From the NCBI RefSeq assembly GCF_001427385.1, contig NZ_LMGJ01000012.1:264783-328782 (forward strand): 64,000 nt of DNA, written 5' to 3'. A program made the translations under genes and the position numbers. Origin of the DNA: Mesorhizobium sp. Root157. Its GTDB lineage: Bacteria; Pseudomonadota; Alphaproteobacteria; Rhizobiales; Rhizobiaceae. Each line of letters starts with the position of its first letter. Position 1 is the stretch's first letter. Shown in pieces: positions 45,879-51,237 of the stretch. Below the pieces are notes generated by a model, which was given only the letters and a program-made list of their open reading frames with translations, ran no database searches and was not told the DNA's origin.

Positions 45879-47654
45879 ATGCGGCAAAGACGCGTTCTCT
45901 GGCTTGCGGGCCTGGCAGTGATGACCGGCCTGGTGTTTCCAGGCCAAGCCGCCATTGCCAAGGAAGCGGCAAAGCCTATTGAAATCACTTCATTTTCGGG
46001 CGCGTTCCTGGCAGCGCGCGTTGCCGAGGGCGACAATGACCTCGACAATGCGATCACCTACTACAAGCAGGCGCTGGCGTTCGCGCCGGACGACACCTCG
46101 CTGCAGCAAAGCCTGATGCTGTCGCTGATCGCACAGGGCCGTTTCGACGAATCGCTGCCCTATGCCGACAAGCTCAAGGAAGTGCCCGATGTGGAGCGCT
46201 TCTCCCGGCTGGCGCTGGCGATCGATACGTTTCGCAAGAAGGACTACGGCAAGGCCGAATACTGGCTGAAGCTGTCGTTGCAGGCCGATCTCGACCGGCT
46301 GATCGCCGGCATCATGACCGGCTGGGCGCGGGCAGGGGCTGGCGATGGCGTTGACGCAATGGCCTATATCGACAAACTGCAGGGGCCCGAATGGTTCGGC
46401 CTGTTCAAGTCGTATCACCGTGCCCTGATCGCCGACGCCGCGGGCCTGAAGAAACAGGCCGACGAAGCCTATGATGCAACGGTGAAGAACACGGCTGCTG
46501 CCGGTGCCGCACCCGAAACCTGGCTGCGCTGCGCGGAGGCCTATGCCCGTTTCCTGGCCATCAACGGCGAGAAAGACAAGGCGCTTGGCGTGCTCGACCA
46601 GGCCGAGACATTCGTGACCGGCAAGGTCGAGATCACGGCGCTGCGCGAAAAGATCACCAAGGGCGAAAAGGTCGAACCGATGGTAGCCGGCCCGGCCGAT
46701 GGCGCTTCCGAGATACTCCTCGATCTTGCGACGGCGTTGAACCGGGGCGGCGGCGAGCCGTTCGTGCGGCTTTATCTGGAATATGCGCTTGCGTTGAAGC
46801 CGAACAGCGACGCGGCGCTGGTGCAACTGGCGGCCGTTGCCGAGCAGCAGAAGGATGGGGAGCGCGCCATCGGCTTCTACAAGCGCATTCCCGAGACCTC
46901 GCCGCTCAAGGCGGTGGCTGAACTGCAGCTTGGCCTCAACCTTGCCGATCTGGACCGCAACGACGAGGCGATCGCGCATCTGAAGAAGCTGGTCGAGGCG
47001 CACCCCGACGAAATGCGCGGTTATCTGGCGCTGGGCGGGGTCTATTCCTCGAAAGAGGATTTCCGCGCCGCCGCCGGCCTCTACGACAAGGCAGTGGAGC
47101 GTCTGACCGACCCGCAGCCGGCCAACTGGAATATCTTCTATCAGCGCGGCATCGCCTATGAGCGGCTGAAGGATTGGCCGAAGGCGGAGCCGAATTTCCG
47201 CAAGGCGCTCGAACTCAACCCCGAGCAGCCGCAGGTCATGAATTATCTCGGCTATTCCTGGGTCGACAAGAACATGAACCTGACCGAAGCGCTGGAAATG
47301 ATCCAGAAGGCCGTCGATCTGCGGCCGAGCGACGGCTACATCGTCGATTCGCTGGGCTGGGCCTATTACAAGCTGGGCCGCTTCGAGGATGCCGTGCGCG
47401 AACTGGAGCGCGCCGTGTCGCTGAAGCCGGAAGATGCGGTGCTCAACGATCATTTGGGCGACGCCTACTGGCGGGTCGGCCGCAGGCTGGAAGCGACCTT
47501 CCAGTGGAGCTATGCGCGTGACCTGAAGCCGGAACCGGACGTGCTTGCCTCGGTGCAGGAAAAGCTCGCCAAGGGCCTGTCGCCGATCGAAGCCAACACC
47601 GCGCAGGACACGCCGCCGACCAAGCCGAAGCCGGTTCCTGCGCCCAAGGGGTGA
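45879..47654 (+). CDS. Large exported TPR-repeat protein
   Basis: 591 residues. Signal peptide (VLWLAGLAVMTGLVFPGQAA) then TPR units across the length. Clear ones are DLDNAITYYKQALAFAPDD near 50, DWPKAEPNFRKALELNPEQP near 435 and GRFEDAVRELERAVSLKPED near 505. Such proteins act as periplasmic scaffolds. ATG 45879 has AAAGGAA upstream; an earlier in-frame ATG (45786) gives a poor signal. The C-terminal tail is Pro/Lys rich (PPTKPKPVPAPKG). Function unknown. Confidence 0.85.
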   Translation: MRQRRVLWLAGLAVMTGLVFPGQAAIAKEAAKPIEITSFSGAFLAARVAEGDNDLDNAITYYKQALAFAPDDTSLQQSLMLSLIAQGRFDESLPYADKLKEVPDVERFSRLALAIDTFRKKDYGKAEYWLKLSLQADLDRLIAGIMTGWARAGAGDGVDAMAYIDKLQGPEWFGLFKSYHRALIADAAGLKKQADEAYDATVKNTAAAGAAPETWLRCAEAYARFLAINGEKDKALGVLDQAETFVTGKVEITALREKITKGEKVEPMVAGPADGASEILLDLATALNRGGGEPFVRLYLEYALALKPNSDAALVQLAAVAEQQKDGERAIGFYKRIPETSPLKAVAELQLGLNLADLDRNDEAIAHLKKLVEAHPDEMRGYLALGGVYSSKEDFRAAAGLYDKAVERLTDPQPANWNIFYQRGIAYERLKDWPKAEPNFRKALELNPEQPQVMNYLGYSWVDKNMNLTEALEMIQKAVDLRPSDGYIVDSLGWAYYKLGRFEDAVRELERAVSLKPEDAVLNDHLGDAYWRVGRRLEATFQWSYARDLKPEPDVLASVQEKLAKGLSPIEANTAQDTPPTKPKPVPAPKG

Positions 47655-47774
47655 CAACCCGGTCTGCCCATTGGAGGATCGGAAGGTCCGACAACTGAAG
47701 GGCGCTTGAGGCGATCGCGCTATCCGTGGCTCGTCCGTCGCGACCATTGTCGCATCGGGGGAAGGGCCGTTTGC

Positions 47775-47803
47775 CTTGACGCCCATGGACAGGGGCACTA
47801 GGG
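47775..47803 (+). promoter_or_regulatory. Candidate promoter of glyQ-glyS
   Basis: CTTGAC (47775-47780), 17-bp spacer, CTAGGG (47798-47803), about 38 bp before the glyQ GTG. The -35 is consensus for rhizobial housekeeping promoters; the -10 is weaker. Confidence 0.45.
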
Positions 47804-47840
47804 AAAGCCGCATCCTGCCATTGCCGCCGAGGCCATTTCC

Positions 47841-48797
47841 GTGAGCGCCGACCTTCCCGCCCATATGCATCCCAGCCGCTCGTTCCAGGGGCTGATCCTG
47901 ACCTTGCACAACTACTGGGCAAACTACGGTTGCGTCGTGCTGCAGCCTTACGACATGGAAGTGGGTGCCGGTACCTTTCATCCGGCAACGACGCTGCGGG
48001 CGCTGGGGCCGAAGGCATGGAACGCGGCCTATGTGCAGCCTTCGCGCCGGCCCAAGGACGGGCGCTATGGTGAAAACCCCAACAGGCTGCAGCACTACTA
48101 CCAGTATCAGGTGATCCTGAAGCCCAATCCGGACAATCTGCAGGAGCTTTACCTTGGCTCGCTGAAGGCGATCGGCGTCGATCCGCTGCTGCACGACATC
48201 CGCTTCGTCGAGGACGATTGGGAAAGCCCGACGCTGGGCGCCTGGGGGCTTGGCTGGGAATGCTGGTGCGACGGCATGGAGGTGTCGCAGTTCACTTACT
48301 TTCAGCAGGTCTGCGGCATCGAATGCGCGCCGGTGGCGGGCGAACTGACCTACGGGCTGGAGCGGCTGGCCATGTATGTGCAGGGCGTCGACAACGTCTA
48401 CGACCTCAATTTCAACGGCCGCGAAGGCGCTGACAAGGTGACGTACGGCGAGGTCTTCCTGCAGGGCGAGCAGGAATATTCGCGGCACAATTTCGAGTTC
48501 GCCAATACTGCGATGCTGCTGAAGCATTTCGATGACGCCGAGGGCGAATGCCTGGCGCTGCTGGCCGCCGGCGCGCCACTGCCGGGCAGCAATGTGCCGC
48601 ACAAACTGGTGCTGCCGGCTTACGACCAGTGCATCAAGGCCAGCCACGTCTTCAACCTGCTCGATGCGCGCGGCGTCATCTCGGTGACCGAGCGGCAAAG
48701 CTACATCCTGCGCGTCCGCAACCTTGCCAAGGCATGCGGCGAAGCCTTCCTTTTGACCGACGCCGGCGGTTTTTCCCTTGTCGGGGAGGCCGCGTGA
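47841..48797 (+). CDS. glyQ: Glycyl-tRNA synthetase alpha subunit
   Basis: 318 residues from the GTG at 47841; an ATG at 47865 is the shorter option. The class II catalytic subunit of the alpha2beta2 enzyme. Conserved [20 protein letters not shown] at the start, motif-2 region [19 protein letters not shown] and the motif-3 region [17 protein letters not shown]. Its TGA is followed at once by an ATG (TGATG) of a 39-codon ORF that duplicates the start of glyS. Confidence 0.96.
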
Positions 48798-48916
48798 TGC
48801 CCGATCTGCTTCTTGAACTTCGCTCAGAGGAAATTCCGGCCCAGCCGCACCCCCGCAGCGCCGCAGGCGCGAGGGCGTGCAAACCAAGAAAAAGCATGCG
48901 GGTGGAAAAACTCTGA
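48797..48916 (+). CDS. 39-codon ORF: duplicated glyS start fused to a short tail
   Basis: Encodes [15 protein letters not shown] (identical to the first 15 residues of GlyS) followed by an unrelated Gln/Pro/Arg-rich tail ending RVEKL. It overlaps the glyQ stop as TGATG and its own stop overlaps the true glyS start again as TGATG. The 45-bp copies differ at six positions, all synonymous. It may simply couple translation of glyQ to glyS, or be a scar of recombination between two glyS alleles. No independent function is known. Confidence 0.6.
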
Positions 48917-51237
48917 TGCCCGACCTTCTGCTTGAACTTCGTTCCGAAGAAATTCCGGCCCGCATGCAGCGCAAGGCGGCGGGCGATCTGAAGAAACTGG
49001 TGACCGACGGGTTGGTCGACGCCGGCCTGACCTATGAGGCGGCCCGTGAATACTGGACGCCGCGCCGGCTGGCGCTGGACATTCGTGGGCTGACCGCACG
49101 TTCGAAGGATATTCGCGAAGAGCGCAAGGGGCCGTCGACCAAGGCGCCTGAACAGGCAGTCCAGGGTTTTCTTCGCTCGGCCGGGCTAAGCTCGATTGAC
49201 GAGGCGCACGTCCATTCCGATGCCAAGAAGGGCGATTTCTACGTCGCCCTCATCTCCAAACCAGGCAGGGCGGCGGAAGAGATCATCGCGGACCTGATGC
49301 CGGGCATCGTCAAGTCCTTCCCGTGGCCGAAATCGATGCGCTGGGGCGCGGCCTCCGGGCCGAAGGGGATGAGTTATGGCGGCGTCGAAGGGCGCGGCGG
49401 CGCTGCGCTGCGCTGGGTGCGGCCGCTGCAATCGATCCTGTGCACCTTCGGGCCGGAAACCGAGGAGCCGGTGGTGGTCGACTTCGAGGTCGACGGCATC
49501 CGGTCGGGCAACGTGACCTATGGCCACCGCTTTCATGCGCCGGACGCAATCACGGCCAGGCGCTTCGATGACTACGCGGCAAAGCTGGAGGCGGCTAAGG
49601 TTGTGCTCGATGCCGACCGCCGCAAGGAAATCATCCTTGCCGACGCGAAGAACCTGGCGTTCGCCAACGGGCTCGATCTGGTCGAGGACGAGGGCTTGCT
49701 CGAGGAAGTGGCGGGGCTGGTCGAATGGCCGGTGGTGCTGCTTGGCGAATTCGAGAAGGAATTCCTCGCTATTCCGCCCGAGGTGATCCGCTTGACCATC
49801 CGTGCCAACCAGAAATGCTTCGTTACGCGCCCGCAAGGCGAGAGCGGGGACCTCGCCAACCGCTTCCTGCTCGTCGCCAATATCGAGGCGAAGGACGGCG
49901 GCAAGGAGATCGCCTACGGCAACGGCAAGGTGGTGCGGGCGCGCCTCTCCGACGCGGTGCATTTCTGGAAGACCGACCAGGCCAATGTGCCGGACCTCGA
50001 CCAGTTGCAGGCATCGGCCGAAAAGTTCGGGCTGGATCTCACTAAGCCGCTCGACCAGCGCATGGCGCGGCTCGATCATCTCGGCGTCACCTTCCATGCC
50101 AAGCTCGGCACGCAAGGCGAGCGCGTCGAGCGCATCCGCGAACTGGCGTGCGAGATCGCGCCGCTGGTCGGCGCCGATCCCGATCTGGCCGCCCGCGCGG
50201 CTGTGCTGGCCAAGGCCGATCTGACCACCGAGATCGTCGGCGAGTTCCCCGAACTGCAAGGAGCGATGGGCCGTAAGTATGCGCTTCTGCAAGGCGAGGA
50301 TGCCTCGGTCGCGGCGGCAATCGAGGACCACTACAAGCCGCAAGGCCCATCCGACCGCGTGCCGACCGATCCGGTTTCGGTCGCCGTGGCGCTTGCCGAC
50401 AAGTTGGATACGCTGGTCGGCTTTTGGGCGATTGACGAGAAGCCTACCGGCTCGAAGGACCCATTTGCACTGCGCAGGGCGGCGCTGGGCGTGATCCGGA
50501 TTCTGGTTGAGAATGGGGTAAGGTTGGAATTGAATCCTCTCGCGGTCGAAGTTGGCGAAGTCCTGGCCGAGGAACTGGCTGAAAGGGAATTCGCTGATGA
50601 AGCTGAAAGTGCCTCGCTGCTCGACGCTTCGCTGGGTGGAGACTCGCGCTATGATGAAGTGCTCGAGCGTCGGGAGGTTGTCAGGCACACAAAAATCGGC
50701 GAGTGGAAATCTCAACAAAAGGACCTCCTCTCCTTCTTCCATGACCGCCTGAAGGTCTATCTGCGCGATCAAGGCGCAAGGCACGACCTGATCGATGCGG
50801 TGATCACGCCGAAGTCCGACGACCTTCTCACCATCGTCCGCCGCGTCGAGGCGCTGGGCAAATTCCTTGAGACCGATGACGGCAAGAACCTGCTCGCCGG
50901 CACCAAGCGTGCGGCCAACATCCTCGCCGCCGAGGAGAAGAAAGGCACCGCCGTTGCGGCTTCCGTCGAGCCTTCGCTGTTCAAGGAAGACGCGGAGAAA
51001 AACCTGTTCGACGCGGTGAATCAGGCCGAGAAGAAAGCTGGCGAAGCGATTCAAAACGAAGACTTTTCCGGCGCGATGCTGGCGCTTAGCGTTTTGCGTG
51101 AACCAGTTGATTCATTTTTTGAACAGGTGCTGGTCAACGATGACGATCTGGCGGTGCGGGCCAATCGCCTTGCATTGCTGACGCGCATCCGCGCGGCGAC
51201 AGATCAGGTGGCCGATTTCTCGAAGATTGCCGGCTGA
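48916..51237 (+). CDS. glyS: Glycyl-tRNA synthetase beta subunit
   Basis: 773 residues. Beta subunit that provides tRNA recognition. The start [20 protein letters not shown] is the normal GlyS N-terminus. Further family segments are [28 protein letters not shown], and the C-terminal anticodon-binding part ([20 protein letters not shown]). Starts within the stop of the 39-codon ORF. The longer extension from 48877 belongs to the duplicated region. Confidence 0.95.

Follow-up and report, generated by a model that had tools for sequence, protein, structure and literature searches.

A putative guide-directed, gene-restoring insertion unit at the duplicated start of glyS in Mesorhizobium sp. Root157

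In the 64,000-nucleotide stretch of the Mesorhizobium sp. Root157 genome analyzed here (the window; contig NZ_LMGJ01000012.1, positions 264,783 to 328,782), the start of glyS occurs twice downstream of glyQ, and positions 48842-48960 appear to be a copy of an insertion unit that is dispersed and non-coding. The best reading, to which we give a probability of about two in three, is that this unit is non-autonomous, is directed to its site by a guide, and restores the gene that it enters. The sequences show the unit itself, ten targets, empty sites, a foreign second copy, hairpin covariation, complementarity and co-variation of guide and target, and tandem arrays.

The duplicated glyS start and its distribution

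Codons 1-15 of glyS occur twice in the window (Table 1), with ATGs 119 bp apart, and the copies agree at 39 of 45 bases. All six differences (Asp3, Leu4, Leu5, Arg9, Ser10, and Glu11) are synonymous, as the first-pass annotation of this DNA had claimed. It had also described a TGATG at both junctions, and glyQ, a 39-codon open reading frame (ORF), and glyS indeed form a coupled chain, in which the TGA of glyQ (48795-48797) overlaps the first ATG and the TGA of the ORF (48914-48916) overlaps the glyS ATG. In the comparison of glyQ-glyS junctions among relatives that it had proposed, the same layout and a similar spacer recurred across genomes; therefore, the duplication in the window is far beyond chance.

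Loci and genomes of the survey are denoted by L and G numbers, respectively, with G000 being the genome of the window. Within the first 110 loci, the layout and a similar spacer were found in genomes of Mesorhizobium, Aquibium sp. ELW1220, Rhizobium alarense (121 bp between the glyS starts), and a Phyllobacteriaceae metagenome-assembled genome (116 bp). The glyS junction was examined in 140 of the 146 genus genomes (G079, G006, G044, G035, and G114 were left out, and G122 gave no match): 113 had a single glyS start, 23 carried one unit, three carried two, and one carried three in tandem. A structure model built from the spacer (R1) picked out the same 27 of the 146 genomes, in which glyS units scored E below 1e-14, with the next match (E 6e-11) located elsewhere, and it also found no unit at L144 and L206, two loci scored as empty that have under 90 nt of upstream sequence. 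Outside the genus, each of the 27 best R1-scored loci was a glyS unit; their offsets were 112-131 bp, apart from one of 163 bp that includes a run of Ns. Furthermore, glyS units occurred in other Hyphomicrobiales, and tandem arrays reached three units. Their presence was patchy, with 22 changes on a glyS tree (195 nt) compared with 21-27 (mean 25.4) in 100 label shuffles, and close pairs differed, including G022 (filled) and G036 (empty), which were 98.5% identical over 200 nt, and G062 and G064 (96.5%). A palindromic stretch of the type CCCTCCCCATCAAGGGGAGGG was observed immediately upstream of the first glyS start in several genus genomes (L130, L152, L161, L229, and others), and is probably an unrelated small repeat.

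Empty relatives had an intact glyS. Across codons 2-7 in filled genus genomes, identity to the native starts of empty genomes was 0.866 for copy 1 and 0.688 for copy 2; the starts of empty genomes were 0.852 identical to each other, and the second copies 0.868. The following 200 nt of glyS showed no separation (filled-filled 0.863, filled-empty 0.859, and empty-empty 0.864). With copy 1 native, copy 2 foreign, and the downstream flank alike, these comparisons argue that a ready-made unit of about 119 bp was placed after codon 15 of a native glyS, that it supplied a new start, and that whole alleles were not exchanged. Recombination between two diverged glyS alleles, as suggested by the first-pass annotation, was thus correct in that copy 2 resembles the 5' end of a diverged allele, but the foreign part is the unit alone. 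The silent differences are explained by the two copies serving, at present or until recently, as functional glyS starts in different lineages. Selection for the leader peptide, its other suggestion, was not supported, as the peptide past codon 15 is not conserved as a protein; 18 of 22 variable spacer positions (those differing in at least three of 30 units) are first or second codon positions. In total, 65 glyS units were compared, in which two genomes were probably counted twice (L041/L288 and L061/L280); in this comparison the guide was misplaced in L041, L288, and L300, and none was found in L124. At L124 (G012), a copy of the glyQ 3' end stands in place of the last part of the spacer, including the guide; this resembles gene conversion between the two glyS upstream regions.

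Hairpin core, target genes, and guide

The 74-bp spacer of the glyS unit contains a covarying hairpin. In an alignment of 32 cores from six targets (A2), 94.3% of the cells paired and eight of 12 pairs changed on both sides; its covariation score was 0.350, compared with 0.102 for shuffled alignments (0 of 500 reached the observed value) and at most 0.053 for slid ones. Among 71 distinct cores, 37 G.T pairs were counted versus seven A.C pairs, and therefore the element strand is the folding strand. A model of the core (R2) matched at E≤0.001 in 66 of 397 order genomes and eight of 289 class genomes, with the genome of the window counted in both. Of the class matches outside the order, L366 was a clear unit at a tRNA-Met gene, L370 and L371 had no duplicated end and were chance-like, and the rest were partial matches to the model. 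Rfam assigned no family to window positions 48600-49200 or to nine further loci, the gathering score being reached only by rRNA and tRNA genes beside the L366 unit. The exact core pattern had no match in viral_contigs, and BLAST of the 164-bp segment against the genome of the window gave no convincing second copy (best E 0.026). The best 30 of 136 records in a plasmid BLAST comprised glyS pieces and weak matches; two of the four inspected matches lay inside recombinase genes and were judged by eye to be coding coincidences. Two loci were unusual in arrangement: L348 (G571:C10:244668-244948) was a tandem array of bare cores that repeat every 46 bp without a gene end in between, and L363 had two different cores close together, adjoining a duplicated stretch.

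The hairpin spacer is also shared by other genes, including 3' ends and a tRNA gene, which the first-pass annotation had not foreseen. R1 matched at E≤0.1 in 115 of 146 genus genomes, with many weak matches, and at E≤0.01 in 130 of 394 family genomes, often in arrays. The inspected loci comprised 23 of these R1 matches, 30 from later searches, and 40 more, and most of those with a clear core had the hairpin between two copies of the end of a gene. The 5' end was the target in glyS, hisF, hisA, cimA, rnhA, a CoA-transferase family III gene, and a tRNA-Met gene, whereas the 3' end was the target, with the element on the opposite strand, in mmsA, ilvC, and sdhB. In the inspected cases, when read in element orientation, the gene body was located to the right of the second copy. 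Target identities were established on one example per gene by Pfam, in five cases also by NCBIfam, and for the tRNA by ARAGORN; that of sdhB rests on Fer4 domains and the C-terminus. Among the 30 later loci, L327, L328, and L358 had no core by the pattern used, and among the last 40, automatic assignment was wrong in place or strand for several (e.g., L377, L388, L392, L396, L403, L408, L409, L411, and L413). Many mmsA units had a TAG stop, and the orphan copies often had TGA. At L313, the orphan copy was lost. The genome of the window contains a worn second unit at the 3' end of mmsA (L326, G000:C33:119374-119420, E 5e-6), in which a partial match between guide and gene site remains. At L306 and L307 (start of G004:C24 and end of G004:C26), draft contigs break at an mmsA array of identical units, and therefore arrays may exceed the length seen in drafts.

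Past the hairpin and an A-rich linker, approximately 8-12 nt (6 at rnhA) form the reverse complement of the target sequence that spans the insertion point. In the window, this putative guide, GCATGCGGG, faces CC/CGCATGC, where the stroke marks the insertion point. With one unit for each of the ten targets, the own pairings summed to 84.0 (mean 8.4, compared with 4.8 for mismatched pairings), a value that was reached in none of 200,000 permutations; the same-strand control was flat (4.8 versus 4.5), and eight of ten guides scored highest on their own target. The guide also followed the allele within a target, with pairing as good as observed in 0 of 20,000 permutations for 28 mmsA units, 67 for 20 hisF units, and 378 for seven ilvC units. 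At hisF, GGATGG occurred with the guide CCATCC (L350) and GGGCGG with CCGCCC (L382); at mmsA, TAACACCCGAC occurred with GTCGGGTGTTA (L315 and L320) and GCCGCTCG with CGAGCGGC (L399). Furthermore, the best complement of the guide segment was located within the 400 nt downstream, with no site picked by hand for any locus, and it lay no more than 8 nt from the junction at 57 of 62 earlier loci and at 21 of 26 loci that were added once the rule had been set (expected 2.9 and 1.1, respectively).

Proposed mechanism, alternatives, and known systems

Each unit begins on one strand with the conserved hairpin, followed by the A-rich linker, the guide (about 8-12 nt), a short filler, and finally a copy that replaces the end of the target gene; it is located within a conserved gene, about 15-60 bp from its end. 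The original end remains outside as an orphan and the copy of the unit is joined to the gene body, so that the gene survives; at glyS, the orphan start keeps its upstream context, and translation of the leader would reach the new start through the stop-start overlap. The hairpin and the matching guide lie on one strand regardless of gene direction, which points to DNA recognition through base pairing by a single strand of the unit, either single-stranded DNA, as in IS608 (PMC5934647), or RNA, as with the seekRNA of IS1111/IS110 (PMC11187229). We infer that the guide picks the site, and perhaps the excision point too, by base pairing, that the acting molecule may be a single strand (RNA or single-stranded DNA) of the element strand, and that an enzyme would act in trans. 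After insertion, the guide also matches the junction past the carried gene end and could set the excision point, and arrays could arise by repeated insertion or by recombination between repeats. An antisense small RNA directed against the target mRNA was ruled out, as the guide carries the sense sequence of the gene at 3' targets.

Several results weigh against this mechanism. No movement was observed and no enzyme was found. The single-strand folding energy of the window copy was not unusual (z -1.53 and z -1.07). For rnhA, the guide had a higher score on ilvC than on its own site, and for cimA the own target and mmsA tied. The guide was mismatched to glyS codon 15 in 11 of 57 cases, and the guide permutations ignore relatedness. 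A first automated test, in which junctions in arrays were misplaced, gave p≤0.05 for only 38 of 61 loci; in the junction-distance test, ten of 88 loci missed (L314, L322, L324, L351, L360, L380, L389, L393, L407, and L413) and 25 of 113 loci stayed unclassified. Y1 transposases were not associated with the units: PF01797 occurred in 24 of 146 genus genomes and in six of 27 filled ones (Fisher p 0.41), with none in the genome of the window, and scanning near 30 Y1 loci for the core yielded nothing convincing (best E 0.023, 15.1 bits). PF01548 was detected in 119 of 144 genus genomes and in none of the units, and among the 30 IS110 loci listed no convincing core was found (best E 0.085). Neither a Y1 transposase nor IS110 was therefore supported as a partner by association or by core scans.

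Homologous recombination alone would require one old insertion per gene that was passed between strains and amplified on the repeated ends; the units would have no mobility of their own, and the guide would be a structural arm or a relic. Unequal crossing-over or gene conversion would account for the arrays and for near-identical copies in one genome, and the copy of the glyQ end in the L124 spacer is in line with this. However, the foreign sequence ends at the unit, one core occurs at ten unrelated genes, and guide and target alleles co-vary, which makes this explanation unlikely. The units could also be scars left by larger integrative elements, with gene ends serving as the attachment sites of their integrase. 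They would then resemble known islands in bringing a replacement gene end, but all inspected units were small and similar in size, many were in tandem, none had a gene, and one core serves ten targets; such an origin is quite improbable. An assembly artefact or a local tandem duplication of glyS is suggested by the repeated arrangement itself and has next to no probability, as independent assemblies share the arrangement, the spacer does not consist of glyS sequence, and copy 2 is of foreign origin.

A cis-regulatory leader, in which the hairpin and the leader ORF tune translation of glyS (and of hisF and cimA), is favored by the placement of the leader stop. Relative to the next ATG, it lay at -1 in 51 of the 65 glyS units, at -8 in ten, at 0 in one, and at +1 in two, despite varying unit length; in 64 units it thus ended no deeper than 8 nt into the next start and no more than 1 nt ahead of it, and the exception (L293) has Ns. 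Judging from these positions, coupled re-initiation from the old glyS start seems to be kept by selection. Stop-start coupling was also found in seven of ten hisF pairs and both cimA pairs; it fails as a general rule at most rnhA units (three of 13 pairs coupled). The rnhA result, the presence of the core at tRNA-Met and, on the opposite strand, at three 3' ends (mmsA, ilvC, and sdhB), and the 119 of 146 genus genomes without a glyS unit in the R1 search render a regulatory leader very unlikely. Coupling fits an insert that is forced not to silence its host gene better than a regulator because most relatives do without the unit and others are located at 3' ends or at a tRNA gene.

The guided, gene-restoring unit shares single traits with several known systems. 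Gene-restoring genomic islands are large, bear an integrase, and bring a copy of the end of the gene entered; the units also bring this end, but at approximately 97-138 bp they have no room for an integrase and contain no gene. Group I introns contain an internal guide that complements the joined exons on both sides of the insertion point, and the internal guide of the units likewise spans the insertion point, but the units are far too small for such an intron and the gene end is duplicated. Miniature inverted-repeat transposable elements share their terminal inverted repeats with a parent transposon and are flanked by a target duplication that is short and fixed. In the units, the duplicated stretch varies with the gene, and no parent element was found in this analysis.

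IS608 (IS200/IS605 family) has a hairpin and a cleavage site recognized by guide pairing, its insertion site can be altered through the element DNA, and extended pairing with sequence 3' of the hairpin has been engineered (PMC5934647). The units resemble it in having a hairpin near the element end and one folded strand, and their guide, which is complementary to the target, may pair with a cleavage site in a comparable way. IS608 differs in encoding TnpA and in its two hairpin ends, each with a 4-nt guide on the 5' side of the hairpin (PMC5934647), whereas the units have no gene, a single hairpin, a longer guide 3' of the hairpin, and a carried gene end. Repetitive extragenic palindromic (REP) elements are, like the units, small non-coding hairpins, and are thought to be moved in trans by TnpA-REP (PMC8266576); unlike REP elements, the units have duplicated gene ends and a target-specific guide, and the A2 consensus has no GTAG-type motif beside the hairpin. 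A short target-matching segment is shared with the seekRNA and bridge RNA of IS1111 and IS110 (PMC11187229, PMC11208160). The seekRNA, an RNA of 70-100 nt whose short target-matching segments are naturally reprogrammed, is derived from an element that carries a gene for a DEDD transposase, and it matches both target strands (PMC11187229). In contrast, the units have no transposase and a single contiguous top-strand guide that spans the junction. The carried gene end is the only copy that matches the other strand.

No such family was found in Rfam or in a literature search whose coverage excluded most subscription journals. The unit family may yet turn out to be a non-autonomous offshoot of a guided transposon that is already known. 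We put at even odds a new class of gene-less guided mobile unit, approximately 97-138 nt of RNA or single-stranded DNA, in which the hairpin would bind a recombinase, a guide of about 10 nt would name the landing site, the carried end would spare the gene, a change of guide would open new genes, and units would stack in tandem. If this is true, bacteria host a gene-less guided insertion that enters glyS, hisF, ilvC, and a tRNA gene without breaking them, since the missing end is brought along. Nature would then have a third guide logic, in addition to the seekRNA of IS110/IS1111 and the DNA guides of IS608; the unit would also be a model for gene-sparing insertion, and the search for the enzyme would become a concrete problem. 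For annotation, it would be a caution that an orphaned copy may be the source of the start or stop assigned to these genes.

Annotated features of the window

The features at the glyQ-glyS junction are given in Table 1. The nearest named record to the GlyQ of the window was from Mesorhizobium sp. Root552 (96%).

Table 1. Features at the glyQ-glyS junction, in window coordinates.
Feature	Position	Strand	Basis
glyQ, upstream neighbor; TGA overlaps orphan glyS start	47841-48797	+	ORF, Pfam PF02091
Copy 1, orphan native glyS 5' end (codons 1-15)	48797-48841	+	Alignment; native codon choice in filled genomes
39-codon leader ORF; TGA overlaps glyS ATG	48797-48916	+	ORF
Putative inserted 119-bp unit (spacer and carried glyS start)	48842-48960	+	Empty-site comparison; tandem elsewhere
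Conserved hairpin core	48847-48880	+	R2 match 48840-48890, 61.4 bits; covariation, 32 cores; predicted folds
A-rich linker	48881-48893	+	Sequence; similar linkers in other units
Putative guide GCATGCGGG, reverse complement of 48959-48967	48894-48902	+	Sequence; pairing appears in predicted fold
Filler before new ATG	48903-48915	+	Sequence
Copy 2, carried glyS 5' end, working start	48916-48960	+	Alignment; codon comparison
Guide-matched target, spanning the insertion point between 48960 and 48961	48959-48967	+	Sequence, permutation test
glyS	48916-51237	+	ORF, Pfam PF02092

The filler together with the end of the guide contains GGGTGGA, a likely ribosome site. On the minus strand, a 994-codon open frame (45990-48974) runs antisense through glyQ and the unit, and is probably a coincidence of high GC content.
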